A stretch of 37,738 nt of DNA from a virus, in IMG/VR virus record IMGVR_UViG_3300047319_000436, positions 1 through 37,738 of that record; one strand, written 5' to 3'. The notes beneath the pieces were generated by a model. That model was not told the DNA's origin. It worked only from the letters and a program-made list of their open reading frames with translations, and did no database searches. Shown piece after piece: positions 13,001 through 33,208 of this stretch. Position numbers and translations under genes: made by a program. How positions within the stretch are numbered: the first letter of the stretch is position 1; each line of letters starts with the position of its first letter.

Positions 13001-13201
13001 ATGCCAAAAATAGTAAAGGTCAAATTACACGCCCGGTCTCACGTCCACGGCGAGGCCCGCAATAAAGGCGAGATCGTCGAGTTGCCCGAACTGGCGGATG
13101 ACGGCCTGCCTCTGGCTTCTGTCTTTGGCGAGATCGTCGGAGCGGCCGAGGCAAAACCTGCGGATGTCGCACCGGCCGCAGAAGAAGACGAAGAAAGTTA
13201 A
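13001..13201 (+). CDS. Small hypothetical protein of the neck region
   Basis: The 66-residue product begins with a beta-rich region (MPKIVKVKLHARSHVHG, GEIVELPELADDG) of the kind found in many small phage proteins encoded between connector and tail genes, and ends in an Ala/Glu-rich disordered tail. It is too short for a confident fold assignment. It is followed by the tail tube gene after a 22-base gap with a good ribosome binding site. Confidence 0.5.
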   Translation: MPKIVKVKLHARSHVHGEARNKGEIVELPELADDGLPLASVFGEIVGAAEAKPADVAPAAEEDEES

Positions 13202-13223
13202 CTAACAGCAAAGAGGAACGATC

Positions 13224-13988
13224 ATGGCATTTACCGAAACAGTAACTTACGTTTATAACCGCGGCCAGCTCTGGATGGGCGACGCGATCGCGGGCGGTAT
13301 GCCGTCCAGTTTTCCGATCGACATCGCGGCGATCGACACGTTCGAGATCACGCTAACTCCGTCATATGTCGAGCATGTCCAGAAACAGACCGCAGTCGCC
13401 ACGAAAGATATAAGGGCACTCAGCGAGATCACCGCAACGGGCAAGATCACCTGCTCGCAGCGATCTGTCACGCTGATGACAAGGTGGCTTTATGGTTCGA
13501 ACACAACCATAGCTGGCGGTGCGCTCTCATCGACGGCGTTCGTCAAAACTCCTGTCGTCGTTGGAGATATTCTACCCATACCAGGCAACCGGACAAAGAT
13601 GACAGCGGTTGTTGTAACCGATTCCACTCCGACGACCGGAGTATTAGGCACAGACTACGAGCTCGACGCCGACGCAGGCCTTGTTAAAGTTCTGAGCATT
13701 TCCACCCTAACGACGATGCCATGGAAGGTGGCAGGAACCGAAGGCGCGGCGACAGGTATCAATATTTTCCAAAGTCCACCCGTGCTGCAGGGCTTGCGTT
13801 TCAAGGGCATCAACATCACGAACAACAACGCCATCGAGATCCTCGATATTCCGAAACTTCAACTCAGCCCGGCCGGAGCATGGCAACAGTTGGGCGACGG
13901 CACCAGCGTCGCATCGTATGAGTGGGATTTCGAGATCCTTACGGATGCCACGAACCTTGTCTATCCGTTCGGTCGTCAGAAGCTCTAA
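13224..13988 (+). CDS. Major tail tube protein
   Basis: AGAGGA precedes the start. The 254-residue protein has the size of lambda gpV (246) and its layout: an N-terminal strand pair (YVYNRGQLWMGDAIAG), the ITLTPSYVEHVQKQTAVATKD loop region, a central sheet and a C-terminal part where tube proteins carry extra domains. Rings of this protein stack to form the tail tube around the tape measure. Its location directly before the frameshifted chaperone gene and tape measure is the canonical one. Confidence 0.8.
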   Translation: MAFTETVTYVYNRGQLWMGDAIAGGMPSSFPIDIAAIDTFEITLTPSYVEHVQKQTAVATKDIRALSEITATGKITCSQRSVTLMTRWLYGSNTTIAGGALSSTAFVKTPVVVGDILPIPGNRTKMTAVVVTDSTPTTGVLGTDYELDADAGLVKVLSISTLTTMPWKVAGTEGAATGINIFQSPPVLQGLRFKGINITNNNAIEILDIPKLQLSPAGAWQQLGDGTSVASYEWDFEILTDATNLVYPFGRQKL

Positions 13989-14695: not shown

Positions 14696-17653
14696 ATGGC
14701 AAGCTCCGCGGACTATAAACTCAAGTATTCCATCGAGGCAGACGGATCGAAGGCGACGGCCGAGATCAAGAAGGTCGAGACAGCCTATGGACGTCTAGCC
14801 AAGTCGACGGCGGGCGTGCAGGCCGGTGCTAAATCGGCCGCGAGCGAGGTCAGCAATGTCGTTGCCGCATTAACAGGCGACAGACTCTCCGGAGCCGCAT
14901 CTCAAATCACATCCCTCGCTAACGCATTCGGAGCCATTCCTGGCCCTGCAGGCCTCGCTGTCGGAGCCGTCGCATCATTTGGCGTCGCCGTTGTCGGCGT
15001 CGGCGGCGCGTTGTTCGAACTGACAAAGCATGCCGCCGAGTATGGCTCGACGATCTACGATGCATCGAAAAAGACCGGCCTGCATGCCGAGACTCTTTCG
15101 GCTATGGACCTCGCCGCAAAGCAGAGCGGCACATCGCTAGAAGCGGTTACGACCGGCATCGCAAAACTGACCAAAAATATCGGAGCAGGCACAGACGAGC
15201 TAAAGGCTTTCGGTATCACACCAAAGCAGGCCATCGCGGATCTCGACGGATCGCTCGCCAAGGTCTTCAAACGCATCAACGATGCAAAGCCGGGTTACGA
15301 GCAGATCACGCTCGCTCAGAAAGCTTTTGGCCGATCGGGTGCGGACCTTATCCCATTCATAAAAGAATTTAACGGCAACCTGCCGGCATTGATCGCGAAA
15401 TGCAAAGAGTTAGGCCTCACGCTCGGCGACGAGGACGCCAAACAAAGCCACGAGTTTACCGCACAGCTCGCCGAGCTCGAGCAACAGGCACAGACGCTCG
15501 GTGTCGCGTTCGCTCACGATCTGATGCCGGTCTTCAAGGACGCGATGCGTGACCTGGAAACTTGGCTTGGTCGCAATAAGGACACTTTCCATGAATGGGG
15601 CCAGATCGTCAGCGATATTATCCGCGGCGTCGTGAAGGACTTTGAAGACCTCGGTAAGTCCTATAGCAAAAATAATGATATGGGACTGCTCATGGCCGCC
15701 TTGCAGGGGACCGGTGTGGGCCAACTTGTCAGCGGACTTGCATATAAGGGCCAGCAGGAACGCATCGCCAACGCGCCGCCTGCATGGACGGGCCGCGGCT
15801 TCCAATTAAACCCTTACACGAACACGCTCGAGGCCCAGCCCGAAAAGCCGCAAGCCCCGTCAGGCATCCCGGATTTTGGGAAAGGCGGCGGTGCCGACAA
15901 GTTCAAGCTCAGCCCGGCGGGTAAGGCCCTAGTCGACACGGCAAACAAGATCGGTATATCTCCGCTGGACTTAGCGACGATCATCGGTTTTGAAACGGCG
16001 GGAACGTACTCGACCTCGAAGACAAATTCCATCGGCCGCTTTGGCCTGATCCAGTTCGGTAAATCAGAGGCGGCGGCCTATGGTGCGTCAAAGGGCCAAT
16101 CGTTCGAGACCCAACTCGACGCCGTTGCTAAATATCTCGTTGATCGCTTTACAAAGTCCGGAAAGGAACTCTCTGGGGCCAAATTGCTCGATCTCTATAC
16201 GGCTGTCATCGCCGGCAGCCCGACCGCATCTGCGACACGCACAGATCAGTACGGTACATCGGCACTCTCGGGCGTTCGCCGCATGCTGCTCGGCGGTACT
16301 CAACAAGCTGCTCTCGCCCGATTCTTTGGCGGTAAGGAAAGCAATGTCCCGGGCGACAAGGCCGGCACCGAATATCGCAACTTCGAAAAGGCAGCGAACG
16401 AGAAGGCCGAAAAAGACTGGAAAGAATACTGGCAATTTAAAAAGGACATTCAAAAAGAGGGCGTCGACTATCTACTGACGCAGGCCGAGCGCGAGTTGCA
16501 GATCATTCAGGATACGGGTGCCGGATATGTCGAGGCCACGCAAAAATCAAAGGCTGTAGCCGATCTTAAACTCCAAAGCTATGCCGACGAGATCACCGCT
16601 CTCGAGGAACTCTTCGATCATACGACCGATCTCGACAAGCAAACCGAGATTCGCCGTCAGATCGAGGTTAAGACGATCGAGATGCAGCGGGAGAAGATCA
16701 AGATCACTAATGACGAAAGTGATTCGATCGTAAAACTCACCTCGAAATACTACGACTTTACCGAGGGACTTAAAGCCGCACAGCAAGCGACCGAGGATTA
16801 CATGCAGTCGATGCCGAACGGACTGCCGCCAGGCTTTAAGGGCGGCGTTGGTACAGGAAGCGGTGCATACGAAACTGAGGAAGAACGACAGGCCCGGCTC
16901 GGACGCACGATCGGTAGTGGACAGACCCGTGACGCCTTTAGCGATCTGCGTCAGCATTTCGTTGACAAAAACAGCACCGGAATGATCGCTGGCGTCGATG
17001 CGATGACACAGGCGTTCTCGCAGCTTGGCCAGGCAGTAGGCTCGGCTGTTGAAGCTTTCGTTTTATATGGCAATGCCGGTGCATCTGTTCGCCAGGTTAC
17101 AGCACAGATCCTCGCCTCGATCGCGCAACAGGCGGCGGTCCAGGCTATCTATGAATTAGCTCAAGGGCTCGCCGTTCTCGCTCTTGCATTCTTTGGCGTG
17201 CCTAACGCTGGCCCGTCGGCCACGGCTCACTTTGCAGCAGCAGCAATGTACGGCCTGGTCGCTGGAGTCACTGCTGTTGCCGGCCGGGGCGTCGCTGGGA
17301 ATTCGATGAAAGGCGGAGCAGGCGGTGCGAAAGGGGCTGGAGCTCCCGGCTCGACCGGAGCGTATTCGTATGGCGGGACGGACAGCATTAACCAGCACCC
17401 GACGCCATACTCGCGGGCATCTGCTGACGCATACATCAGTGGCCATCGCGATCCTTTGGTCGCCGCTATCGATCGCAATACGCAGGCGACGCTGGCTCTG
17501 CATAAGAAGATCGACATCGCGAGACCTGGCGACGTTTTGACCCGCGGCATGGATCAAAAGCCGGGAGCAGTTGGTCACCAGGTCATTAAAGACATCGGGC
17601 GAAATGCCGCGATCGGGACCGGAATGTTAAAGGCAGCGGGGCAGAGACGATAA
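14696..17653 (+). CDS. Tape measure protein with embedded lysozyme-like domain
   Basis: The 985-residue protein is by far the longest in the tail region and follows the chaperone, as tape measures do. The N-terminal part is Ala/Gly/Ser-rich (residues 1-110, hydrophobic), then coiled coil. Residues about 405-550 form a transglycosylase-like domain: Glu433 in IGFETAG, then TNSIGRFGLIQFGKSEAAAYG. Residues about 560-700 are charged coiled coil. Hydrophobic segments near 820-860 could insert into the inner membrane during DNA entry. The C-terminus carries PGDVLTRGM (residues 944-952) and ends GMLKAAGQRR, a motif repeated in the small protein at 32736. At about 0.15 nm per residue the tail would be near 150 nm. 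Confidence 0.9.
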   Translation: MASSADYKLKYSIEADGSKATAEIKKVETAYGRLAKSTAGVQAGAKSAASEVSNVVAALTGDRLSGAASQITSLANAFGAIPGPAGLAVGAVASFGVAVVGVGGALFELTKHAAEYGSTIYDASKKTGLHAETLSAMDLAAKQSGTSLEAVTTGIAKLTKNIGAGTDELKAFGITPKQAIADLDGSLAKVFKRINDAKPGYEQITLAQKAFGRSGADLIPFIKEFNGNLPALIAKCKELGLTLGDEDAKQSHEFTAQLAELEQQAQTLGVAFAHDLMPVFKDAMRDLETWLGRNKDTFHEWGQIVSDIIRGVVKDFEDLGKSYSKNNDMGLLMAALQGTGVGQLVSGLAYKGQQERIANAPPAWTGRGFQLNPYTNTLEAQPEKPQAPSGIPDFGKGGGADKFKLSPAGKALVDTANKIGISPLDLATIIGFETAGTYSTSKTNSIGRFGLIQFGKSEAAAYGASKGQSFETQLDAVAKYLVDRFTKSGKELSGAKLLDLYTAVIAGSPTASATRTDQYGTSALSGVRRMLLGGTQQAALARFFGGKESNVPGDKAGTEYRNFEKAANEKAEKDWKEYWQFKKDIQKEGVDYLLTQAERELQIIQDTGAGYVEATQKSKAVADLKLQSYADEITALEELFDHTTDLDKQTEIRRQIEVKTIEMQREKIKITNDESDSIVKLTSKYYDFTEGLKAAQQATEDYMQSMPNGLPPGFKGGVGTGSGAYETEEERQARLGRTIGSGQTRDAFSDLRQHFVDKNSTGMIAGVDAMTQAFSQLGQAVGSAVEAFVLYGNAGASVRQVTAQILASIAQQAAVQAIYELAQGLAVLALAFFGVPNAGPSATAHFAAAAMYGLVAGVTAVAGRGVAGNSMKGGAGGAKGAGAPGSTGAYSYGGTDSINQHPTPYSRASADAYISGHRDPLVAAIDRNTQATLALHKKIDIARPGDVLTRGMDQKPGAVGHQVIKDIGRNAAIGTGMLKAAGQRR

Positions 17654-28229: not shown

Positions 28230-28274
28230 TGGTGGCCAGGGACGGAATTGAACCGCCGACACGCGGATTTTCAG
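28230..28274 (-). tRNA. 3' fragment of tRNA-Phe(GAA), probable attachment-site core
   Basis: On the minus strand these 45 bases read as the tRNA-Phe 3' part: anticodon loop CTGAAAA with anticodon GAA, 3' anticodon stem TCCGC, variable loop GTGTC, T-arm GGCGG-TTCAATT-CCGTC, acceptor 3' strand CCTGGCC, A and CCA. The upstream sequence does not form the matching 5' half (GGCGT cannot pair with TCCGC), so the gene is not complete. Phages that integrate into tRNA genes carry exactly this kind of 3' segment as attP core, to restore the host gene after integration. Both flanks are phage, so this looks like attP rather than attL or attR. Confidence 0.85.
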
Positions 28275-28396
28275 ACGCCGCGAGCGTCTTTCAGCGTGCC
28301 GCGAAATGTAACGTTGATATAAGTCCGGCCCTTACCGGTTCCCTTGGAAACGCGGATCAGATACTTGCGGTCGCCGAGCTTTTTAATTTGAGCCAC
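28271..28396 (-). pseudogene. N-terminal stub of a tyrosine integrase, cut at the att core
   Basis: On the minus strand, GTG at 28396 (directly after the previous stop TAA) starts 41 codons: VAQIKKLGDRKYLIRVSKGT, then GKGRTYINVTFRGTLKDAR, then GV and TGA. This is the standard arm-type DNA-binding N-terminus of phage tyrosine integrases, which usually reads MAxIKKRG-x-YxIRVSxG and FxGTxKEA. The frame runs into the tRNA-Phe core and stops on the TGA inside it. The core-binding and catalytic domains, some 300 residues with the R-H-R-Y residues, are absent from the window. The phage as sequenced has no complete integrase. Confidence 0.7.
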
Positions 28397-28792: not shown

Positions 28793-28990
28793 CTACTCTG
28801 CGACCAATGGGACAGCTTCACCATCCAAAGCAGCAACCGCCGCTTTGATTAATATCTCTATATCAGCATCGCGGTCGGCCGTAAATTCGACCACATCGTC
28901 TGCATTACGTCGGGCGCGCCAAACCCAAGTATCTCCCTGTTTTCGCCACGTGGTAATCGTTATACCTGTATCAGTAAAAGCATACGTCAT
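28793..28990 (-). CDS. Hypothetical small protein, 65 aa
   Basis: The likely start is ATG at 28990, overlapping the TGA of the excisionase-like gene by ATGA, which indicates translational coupling; a start at 29017 would overlap that gene by 31 bases. The product (MTYAFTDTGITITTWRKQGD, then RRNADDVVEFTADRDADIEI, then an Ala-rich helix) is a compact alpha/beta fold with Trp residues. Family not recognised. The position between xis-like and integrase-like genes suggests a regulatory or accessory role. Confidence 0.55.
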   Translation of the reverse strand: MTYAFTDTGITITTWRKQGDTWVWRARRNADDVVEFTADRDADIEILIKAAVAALDGEAVPLVAE

Positions 28991-29244
28991 TCCGCCAGCC
29001 CCCCATTCTGAAACCATCTCTGCAAACGCCGTTTGTCGATCCGAATCGTGCGTTTCCCGAGGACGATCGCTGGAAAGCCGTTCGTCTCGCGGTCGTGCAC
29101 GAGGGCAGTGATCACAGATTTGTCACAATCGCACAACTCGGCTGCCTGATCGATGGTGATCAGCTCAGGCTCAATGGACACGCCAACAAGACGATCCTCG
29201 ACTATCTGCTCGACTAATTCTTTTATTGCTGTTTCGATTTGCAT
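28987..29244 (-). CDS. Excisionase-like helix-turn-helix protein
   Basis: The 85-residue product has an N-terminal helix, then the MerR/excisionase-type motif ITIDQAAELCDCDKSVITAL, the wing-like segment GFPAIVLGKRTIRIDKRRLQ, and the conserved final RWFQ. This is the HTH_17 fold used by excisionases and by small regulators. The order excisionase-like gene, two small genes, integrase stub and att core, all transcribed toward att, agrees with an xis role. A hairpin overlapping the ribosome binding site sits directly before the start. Confidence 0.7.
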   Translation of the reverse strand: MQIETAIKELVEQIVEDRLVGVSIEPELITIDQAAELCDCDKSVITALVHDRETNGFPAIVLGKRTIRIDKRRLQRWFQNGGLAE

Positions 29245-31366: not shown

Positions 31367-31370
31367 TCCA

Positions 31371-31440
31371 GGCGGGTTCGGGTATGGCATGTCAGGGTGT
31401 GTTTGGGCGAGGTTTGTTGTGTCGGGGCAGGCAAGGGGGA
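31371..31440 (+). repeat. Pentanucleotide array 1, 14 units of G(G/T)(C/T)NN
   Basis: From 31371 to 31440 every fifth base is G without a single break (14 of 14 units): GGCGG, GTTCG, GGTAT, GGCAT, GTCAG, GGTGT, GTTTG, GGCGA, GGTTT, GTTGT, GTCGG, GGCAG, GCAAG, GGGGA. The second base is G or T in 13 units, the third C or T in 12. The units are not copies of one another, so this is a patterned, non-identical array, G-rich on the coding strand. It fills the gap before the gene at 31490, in an operon where genes otherwise overlap. Confidence 0.75.
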
Positions 31441-32092: not shown

Positions 32093-32607
32093 TCTACACA
32101 TTCAAAAACAATAAATACAACGCCGACCCGCAAAAAGTTGCCGAAGAACTTGAGCGAATCCGAATTGAGAACGGCCAGCAGCTCCGAACAAAGGATGTTG
32201 TTGTTCAGGCATCGGCGGAAGATTCTCCACTTCATCCATGCTTTACATGGGACGACACGGCGGCGGCTCATAAATACCGAATGCATGAGGCCCGCGAGCT
32301 TATTCGTTCGATCGTCGTCCTTAAAAACGAAACTGACAAACCAACTCCGGTTTATTGGAACGTGATCATAAAGAAAACTGAAAACGCAACCGCTGAACAG
32401 TTTTATCAAAACACCACTGTGCTGATGAAGCGTCCTGAGGAGTACGCGTCCGCTTTACGTGGAATTCTTGGAGATTTGACGGCGGCCCAAGCCGGGCTTG
32501 AACAACTTCGGGCACTGGCTCCGAAGAAAGACAGGTCAAAGGTTAGCTCGGCATCTGATCATATTTCATCGGCCCGCCAAAGGCTCGATGAAATTGCACC
32601 CGGCTAG
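32089..32607 (+). CDS. Uncharacterised phage protein (DSPLHP-type), 172 aa
   Basis: The ATG overlaps the previous stop (ATGA). The product starts IYTFKNNKYNADPQKVAEEL and contains TKDVVVQASAEDSPLHPCFT, WDDTAAAHKYRMHEARELIR, and a C-terminal alpha-helical part. The DSPLH-x-x-F-x-WDD and YR-x-x-x-AR-x-LIRSI blocks recur in phage early regions without a known function. It appears as the obligate partner of the preceding gene here. The stop codon TAG is already part of the second pentanucleotide array. Confidence 0.65.
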   Translation: MIYTFKNNKYNADPQKVAEELERIRIENGQQLRTKDVVVQASAEDSPLHPCFTWDDTAAAHKYRMHEARELIRSIVVLKNETDKPTPVYWNVIIKKTENATAEQFYQNTTVLMKRPEEYASALRGILGDLTAAQAGLEQLRALAPKKDRSKVSSASDHISSARQRLDEIAPG

Positions 32608-32730
32608 GTTTGGCTGGGCAGGTATGGATGGGCGCGGCAGGGCACGGTGCGGTGCGGTGTGGCGCGGCTTGGCTGGCGGGCTATGGCGGGGAGGGCTAGC
32701 CAGGGCGAGGCTTGGCGGGGCGAGGCGAGG
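32602..32730 (+). repeat. Pentanucleotide array 2, about 26 units of GGYNN
   Basis: This array begins inside the stop codon of the preceding gene and runs to 6 bases before the next start. Units include GGCTA, GGTTT, GGCTG, GGTAT, GGATG, GGCGC, GGCAG, GGCAC, GGTGC (twice), GGTGT, GGCGC, GGCTT, GGCTG, and later GGCGA, GGCTT, GGCGG, GGCGA, GGCGA. A few one-base slips (4-base units near 32617, 32676 and 32700) shift the phase. Like array 1 it is strongly G-biased on the coding strand. Its last GAGG serves as ribosome binding site for the gene at 32736. Confidence 0.8.
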
Positions 32731-32735
32731 TTTTT

Positions 32736-33002
32736 ATGAATAATAAACAACAAACAACACGACGAGATTTTCTAAAGGCGGCATTATACGGAACCGTAGC
32801 GGGTGCGGTGATTGTGAATGGTCCGGTCATTGTGAGATCCACACCTTTAAGCAGGAGCATTGACCACATGCGTCAAGCCACAATCGCATTGCAGCAAAAG
32901 ATCAACGCAGCGAAGCCGGGCGATGTTCTGACTAGAGGGATGCAGCAATCACCCGAATCAATCGGCACCGCTATTTTGAAACAAGCGGGACGTAGAAGAT
33001 GA
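32736..33002 (+). CDS. Tat-signal protein whose C-terminus copies the tape-measure C-terminus
   Basis: The 88-residue product begins with a consensus twin-arginine signal (TTRRDFLKAALYG; Arg9-Arg10), followed by a hydrophobic stretch to about residue 33. Residues 47-88 align with the end of the tape measure protein: QATIALQQKINAAKPGDVLT against QATLALHKKIDIARPGDVLT, both continuing RGM, and ending IGTAILKQAGRRR against IGTGMLKAAGQRR. The DNA is diverged at synonymous positions. The protein would present a tape-measure-like tail at the periplasmic side of the inner membrane. It follows array 2 directly and overlaps the next gene by ATGA. Confidence 0.7.
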   Translation: MNNKQQTTRRDFLKAALYGTVAGAVIVNGPVIVRSTPLSRSIDHMRQATIALQQKINAAKPGDVLTRGMQQSPESIGTAILKQAGRRR

Positions 33003-33208
33003 CTGAGGACCTGCTCGCATTGGTGACGCTTATCGCGGTTTGGAAGATCGTCCAGGTCTGGACATTGAAATACAGACTCGGCGTTAAGACCAAAGAACTA
33101 ATCATTGTCGAGGCCCAGCGGGATTGGGCGAATTGCATTGTTATTGACCGCATAAACTACGACGCGCCCGCGGCCTCAAAAACAGAATGGCCCGACGAGA
33201 TCAATTGA
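32999..33208 (+). CDS. Small membrane-associated protein, 69 aa
   Basis: The start overlaps the previous stop (ATGA). The product begins with a hydrophobic helix (LLALVTLIAVWKIVQVWTL) then KYRLGVKTKELIIVEAQRDW and a polar C-terminus. Coupling to the Tat-signal gene suggests that the two act together, perhaps at the inner membrane. Family not recognised. Confidence 0.55.
   Translation: MTEDLLALVTLIAVWKIVQVWTLKYRLGVKTKELIIVEAQRDWANCIVIDRINYDAPAASKTEWPDEIN

Follow-up and report, generated by a model that had tools for sequence, protein, structure and literature searches.

The window analysed here is a 37,738-base stretch of viral DNA (GC 53%), positions 1 to 37,738 of IMG/VR record IMGVR_UViG_3300047319_000436, and it has a siphophage layout with terminase and major head protein genes, a gene for the tail tape measure protein (TMP), further tail genes to ~28 kb, and an early region that carries a RusA resolvase gene. 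Near the resolvase gene, outside the tail operon and ~15 kb from the TMP gene, lies a small gene (32736–33002, + strand; identified as an open reading frame (ORF) and by family and BLAST matches) coding for an 88 residue protein, MNNKQQTTRRDFLKAALYGTVAGAVIVNGPVIVRSTPLSRSIDHMRQATIALQQKINAAKPGDVLTRGMQQSPESIGTAILKQAGRRR, in which a twin-arginine (Tat) signal is joined to a copy of a TMP end. The fusion gene begins with an ATG preceded closely by GAGG. The 985 residue TMP (14696–17653, + strand) is identified by matches to PHROG tape-measure families (e.g., phrog_8125, E 3.1e-21), and sequence alignment places the copied end at 17447–17653 on the same strand.

Residues 37–86 of the fusion protein align without gaps to TMP residues 920–969, with 27 of 50 positions identical (54%; E 7e-16, and 2.9e-14 in a second search). 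The ungapped local score against the TMP end is 141, and the highest among 200 shuffles is 41; E-values and shuffles together exclude a chance match. An earlier note on this DNA described a Tat-exported mimic of the TMP C-terminus. Its signal and its TMP-end match, with the identical PGDVLTRGM, the shared QATxAL and an intact signature, are borne out, whereas the proposed IGTxxLKxAGxRR match, which pairs the end of the fusion protein with the very end of the TMP, requires a 14 residue gap. In an alternative ungapped pairing, the last residues of the fusion protein, ESIGTAILKQAGR, align with GAVGHQVIKDIGR in the preceding TMP segment. Two short segments of the TMP end resemble each other, and for this reason the gapped and ungapped alignments of the last 15 residues score about equally by our own BLOSUM62 reckoning; in this stretch the fusion protein may either have lost an internal piece or stop early. 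The fusion protein and the TMP are the only paralogous pair in a self-comparison of all window ORFs; the same comparison gives no pair in the phage records G001, G002 and G004, and in G003 a single pair, formed by two very short ORFs. The fusion tail is also closest to the TMP of its own phage, with 22 of 39 residues identical vs 10–18 of 39 for eight other TMPs.

The shared sequence includes a signature, PGDVx3Gx2QxP, that marks TMP ends. Scanning IMG/VR with this pattern returns 115 stretches, and the real cases, chance frames aside, are TMP ends (L008, L107, L109, L126, L141, L191, L186 and L232). With the window included, nine TMPs carry the signature 41–43 residues before the stop, and its P, G, D, V, G, Q and P are invariant across all nine ends; L186 and L232 are only ~20% identical to the window TMP in this stretch, yet the signature is kept. 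It reads PGDVLTRGMDQKP in the window TMP (17525–17563, + strand) and PGDVLTRGMQQSP in the fusion protein (32916–32954, + strand), where alignment with the TMP ends of related phages finds 7 of 7 invariant residues kept but only 28 residues separating the signature from the stop. The fusion tail (residues 34–88; 32835–32999, + strand; net charge +7, no cysteine) falls 13–15 residues short of a TMP end and, judged by its sequence, is a shortened copy and not a TMP; a helical segment is predicted in both. Searched with a profile built from these nine ends, each of the other TMP records gives a single match and the window gives two, one to the TMP and one to the fusion protein (E 3.4e-15); G004 gives none, and across ten records nothing other than TMPs and the fusion protein is matched. 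IMG/VR scans for PGDV(x)xxGM and PGDVx3Gx2QxP likewise yield TMP ends and chance matches, which rules out a generic motif in unrelated phage proteins and marks the shared tail as specific to TMP ends; neither scan finds a second small protein of the fusion type. Two further observations concern the TMPs themselves. In L110 (G004; 13054–13716) the TMP body is like that of the window TMP and the C-terminal end is wholly different, a pattern suggestive of modular exchange of TMP ends. Within the window TMP, residues ~410–520 (15924–16260) match domains of lysozyme-like or peptidase type from unrelated phages, and also phrog_21656, so that the TMP may contain a muralytic domain.

The N-terminal part of the fusion protein (residues 1–33; 32736–32834, + strand) consists of the twin-arginine motif TTRRDFLK and a stretch of 19 uncharged residues, A15–V33. 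NCBIfam model TIGR01409 matches it with 23.3 bits against a curated cut-off of 16.7, the sole match over that cut-off among ten phage records, and the Tat pattern is matched by 21 of 200,000 shuffled N-termini. The Pfam Tat models PF10399 (a Rieske-type signal anchor) and PF10518 give weak matches below their cut-offs, and the N-terminal stretch is weakly hydrophobic, with a hydropathy of ~1.7 at best. Since no clear AxA cleavage site is seen after the uncharged stretch, the signal may stay in place as an uncleaved anchor and leave the tail outside, which would be as likely as release of the protein. Tat-dependent export and this topology are predictions from the N-terminus.

The fusion gene is closely packed with its downstream neighbour. 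Its stop overlaps the next start in an ATGA (32999–33002), and the coupled gene (32999–33208, + strand) codes for a 69 residue protein that has one N-terminal hydrophobic helix and no family match in domain/family, PHROG, NCBIfam and defence-model searches. The fusion protein itself matches no PADLOC anti-phage defence model up to E 0.1. Directly upstream is a non-coding, degenerate G-rich repeat of 129 bases (32607–32735, + strand; seen in the sequence, by Tandem Repeats Finder and in a G-rich scan). This intergenic repeat is of the GGCGAGGC / GGCTTGGC type and is a possible recombination spot. A weaker G-rich stretch lies at ~31370–31440. The locus is most likely an early gene of the accessory, moron-like kind.

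Both the Tat signal and a second TMP-tail copy are absent from nine other phage records, which makes the fusion gene, on this comparison, a rare accessory; several of these records are fragments, and the absence is firm mainly for G007. A protein scan of viral and genome contigs for relatives returns only the TMP relatives already found and none in genomes, and the TMP C-terminus has no TMP match among INPHARED phages and plasmids. Matches to Brevundimonas jumbo phages (E 0.2 and 2) lie inside a longer hypothetical protein and are taken as chance. Too little of the early region is shared with relatives to locate the equivalent position of the fusion gene.

The window also holds possible traces of a temperate ancestry. 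On the − strand at 28230–28396, a 45-base stretch resembling a tRNA gene 3’ end with CCA sits directly against the start of an integrase gene, of which the first 41 codons are present; this integrase fragment is 70% identical over 40 residues to a 374 residue frame of G001. The other codons are gone, as though a deletion had run up to a putative attP. G001 contains 42 of the 45 bases of the tRNA-like stretch, and another tRNA-like end is found near the integrase in G007; ARAGORN and Rfam report nothing at the stretch in the window. Beside the truncated integrase, 28987–29244 (− strand) codes for an excisionase-like helix-turn-helix protein whose TIGR01764 match is below cut-off. The lineage looks temperate, and this phage is perhaps no longer so.

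Comparison of the fusion tail with the TMP end bears on when the shared sequence was under selection. Synonymous differences per site (pS) are saturated at ~0.8, and the ratio of nonsynonymous to synonymous differences per site (pN/pS) is 0.33 (bootstrap 0.21–0.50) with the gapped alignment and 0.43 with the ungapped one, which shows that the sequence common to both evolved under protein-level constraint. Over the same end, pN/pS between the window TMP and the G001 TMP is 0.39. As two TMPs differ from each other by the same ratio, the divergence may be older than the fusion, having accumulated while the piece was still within a TMP, and the copied piece may derive from the TMP of another phage. 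The proposal in the earlier note that synonymous divergence shows selection on the fusion protein is thus not sustained. Other features do point to constraint at present. Columns invariant in three near TMPs are kept in the fusion protein at 14 of 17 positions vs 13 of 27 for variable columns (Fisher p 0.03), and its identity to other TMP ends is mostly no lower than that of the window TMP, the near TMPs G001 and G002 excepted. Together with the intact frame and signature, these argue for constraint on the fusion protein, not decisively so without an orthologue.

Small phage proteins acting at DNA entry are already known, and the fusion protein would take its place among them conditional on its function. 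In HK97, the entry block by gp15 is linked to the tail tube and TMP genes (PMC10883804). The likeness lies in gp15 being a small phage-encoded membrane protein, and the 69 residue ORF beside the fusion gene has a gp15-like layout, with no homology shown. However, gp15 (62 residues) does not significantly resemble the HK97 TMP (the best match, E 0.07, lies outside the TMP end), lacks a Tat-type motif and is encoded beside the TMP gene instead of ~15 kb away; the fusion protein has no BLAST match to it at E ≤ 10. Ltp of TP-J34, which is phage-encoded, exported and connected with the TMP C-terminus, excludes phages via TMP interaction, in which its negative residues are believed to contact the positive end of the TMP (PMC3952083). 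Unlike Ltp, which is a lipoprotein, the fusion protein has no lipobox cysteine, and its copy is itself positive and TMP-end-like; Ltp has no significant match to its own TMP. Since neither gp15 nor Ltp resembles the TMP end of its own phage, exclusion by means of a TMP copy would work on another principle. The membrane defence SNIPE also acts at the membrane during injection and through siphophage TMPs, and the lambda TMP is found near or associated with ManYZ at the inner membrane during injection (PMC13190303); SNIPE has DUF4041 and a GIY-YIG nuclease, neither of which is present in the 88 residue protein. Compared with the C-terminal segment of a siphophage TMP, the fusion copy is detached, shortened and supplied with a Tat signal. 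In the literature searched, which leaves many subscription papers outside, no paper joins superinfection exclusion, twin-arginine and phage, and those joining tape measure, twin-arginine and phage deal, judged by their titles, with other subjects.

From HK97 gp15 and TP-J34 Ltp, exclusion of superinfecting phages, as the earlier note suggested, is a reasonable inference. The reading placed first, at somewhat less than even confidence, is that the fusion protein is an early-expressed, membrane-anchored or periplasmic TMP-end decoy that hinders related phages in delivering their genomes. The host Tat system would insert the protein into the inner membrane or carry it across, so that the TMP-end copy would face the periplasm. 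During injection by a related phage, the TMP end of that phage would leave the tail first; the pre-placed copy may then occupy a host membrane or periplasmic factor needed by that end, or may join and spoil the incoming TMP assembly, and by either route DNA entry would fail. The step acted on would be that of gp15 and Ltp, reached through resemblance to the TMP. This decoy is favoured because a Tat signal over cut-off, the only one in ten records, is in frame with a TMP tail; because the tail matches the TMP of its own phage best and retains the whole signature; because the early-region gene is joined by ATGA to that of a small one-helix membrane protein; and because siphophage TMPs are targets or partners of entry-blocking membrane proteins. 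A more specific version, in which the phage has copied its own TMP end onto an export signal to give a periplasmic decoy that, by mimicry of the injection machine, excludes phages of the same entry route, is put forward more tentatively.

Several findings weigh against a decoy. The fusion gene is found in one genome only, with no orthologue for comparisons of selection or co-variation, and it is missing from the closest relative found, G007 (terminase 77% and portal 76% identical to the window), whose head gene runs across the ends of the record, which suggests a complete circular genome. The pN/pS values cannot separate selection before the fusion from selection after it. AlphaFold models of the fusion protein and the TMP end are of low confidence (predicted local distance difference test, pLDDT, 61 and 39), are too poor for fold searches and lend no structural support, and a TMP-end profile has no match among solved structures. 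The baseplate core of JBD30, T5 and 80alpha holds the TMP C-terminus as a docked coiled coil, and for JBD30 its extrusion on tip opening has been proposed (PMC11445458); because of this docking, tail proteins, and not a host factor, may be the usual partners of the copied piece.

Some of these points fit a gene fossil, a TMP piece from this phage or a cousin that a chance event at the G-rich repeat fused to a Tat-signal gene and that has so far had no function. The single genome, the repeat immediately 5’ of the gene, the shortened C-terminal part and a pN/pS like that between two TMPs, as expected if the divergence arose inside TMPs, are all in its favour. Yet the frame is open, with a ribosome-binding site, ATGA coupling, a complete Tat signal and every signature residue, and no sign of decay is seen, similarity to other TMP ends being about as high as that of the window TMP; a fossil is rather unlikely, although it is the strongest competitor. 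Another explanation is a cytoplasmic or membrane-tethered assembly regulator, in which the Tat-like N-terminus would be a mere tether or inactive and the tail would compete with the TMP for the baseplate hub or a chaperone, tuning tail assembly or blocking that of co-infecting phages. Other defences target tail assembly (PMC11364771), but a Tat model above its curated cut-off and a gene placed in the early region outside the tail operon make such a regulator more doubtful than a fossil. It is improbable that the displayed TMP end aids the phage’s own cycle, for instance through retention of a periplasmic chaperone or the priming of a site in the inner membrane. This alternative, also offered in the earlier note, shares the anatomy of the decoy, but a protein made after infection cannot assist that entry, progeny mostly infect other cells, and eight relatives with the same TMP signature have no such gene. 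A decoy or dominant-negative exclusion protein thus ranks ahead of a fossil, and a fossil ahead of an assembly regulator.

The meeting of siphophage TMPs with the inner membrane is poorly understood, and a small, detached and exportable copy of a TMP end would serve as a ready-made probe for the partner of that end. If the fusion protein does block entry, it would represent exclusion by copying an injection protein instead of binding it.
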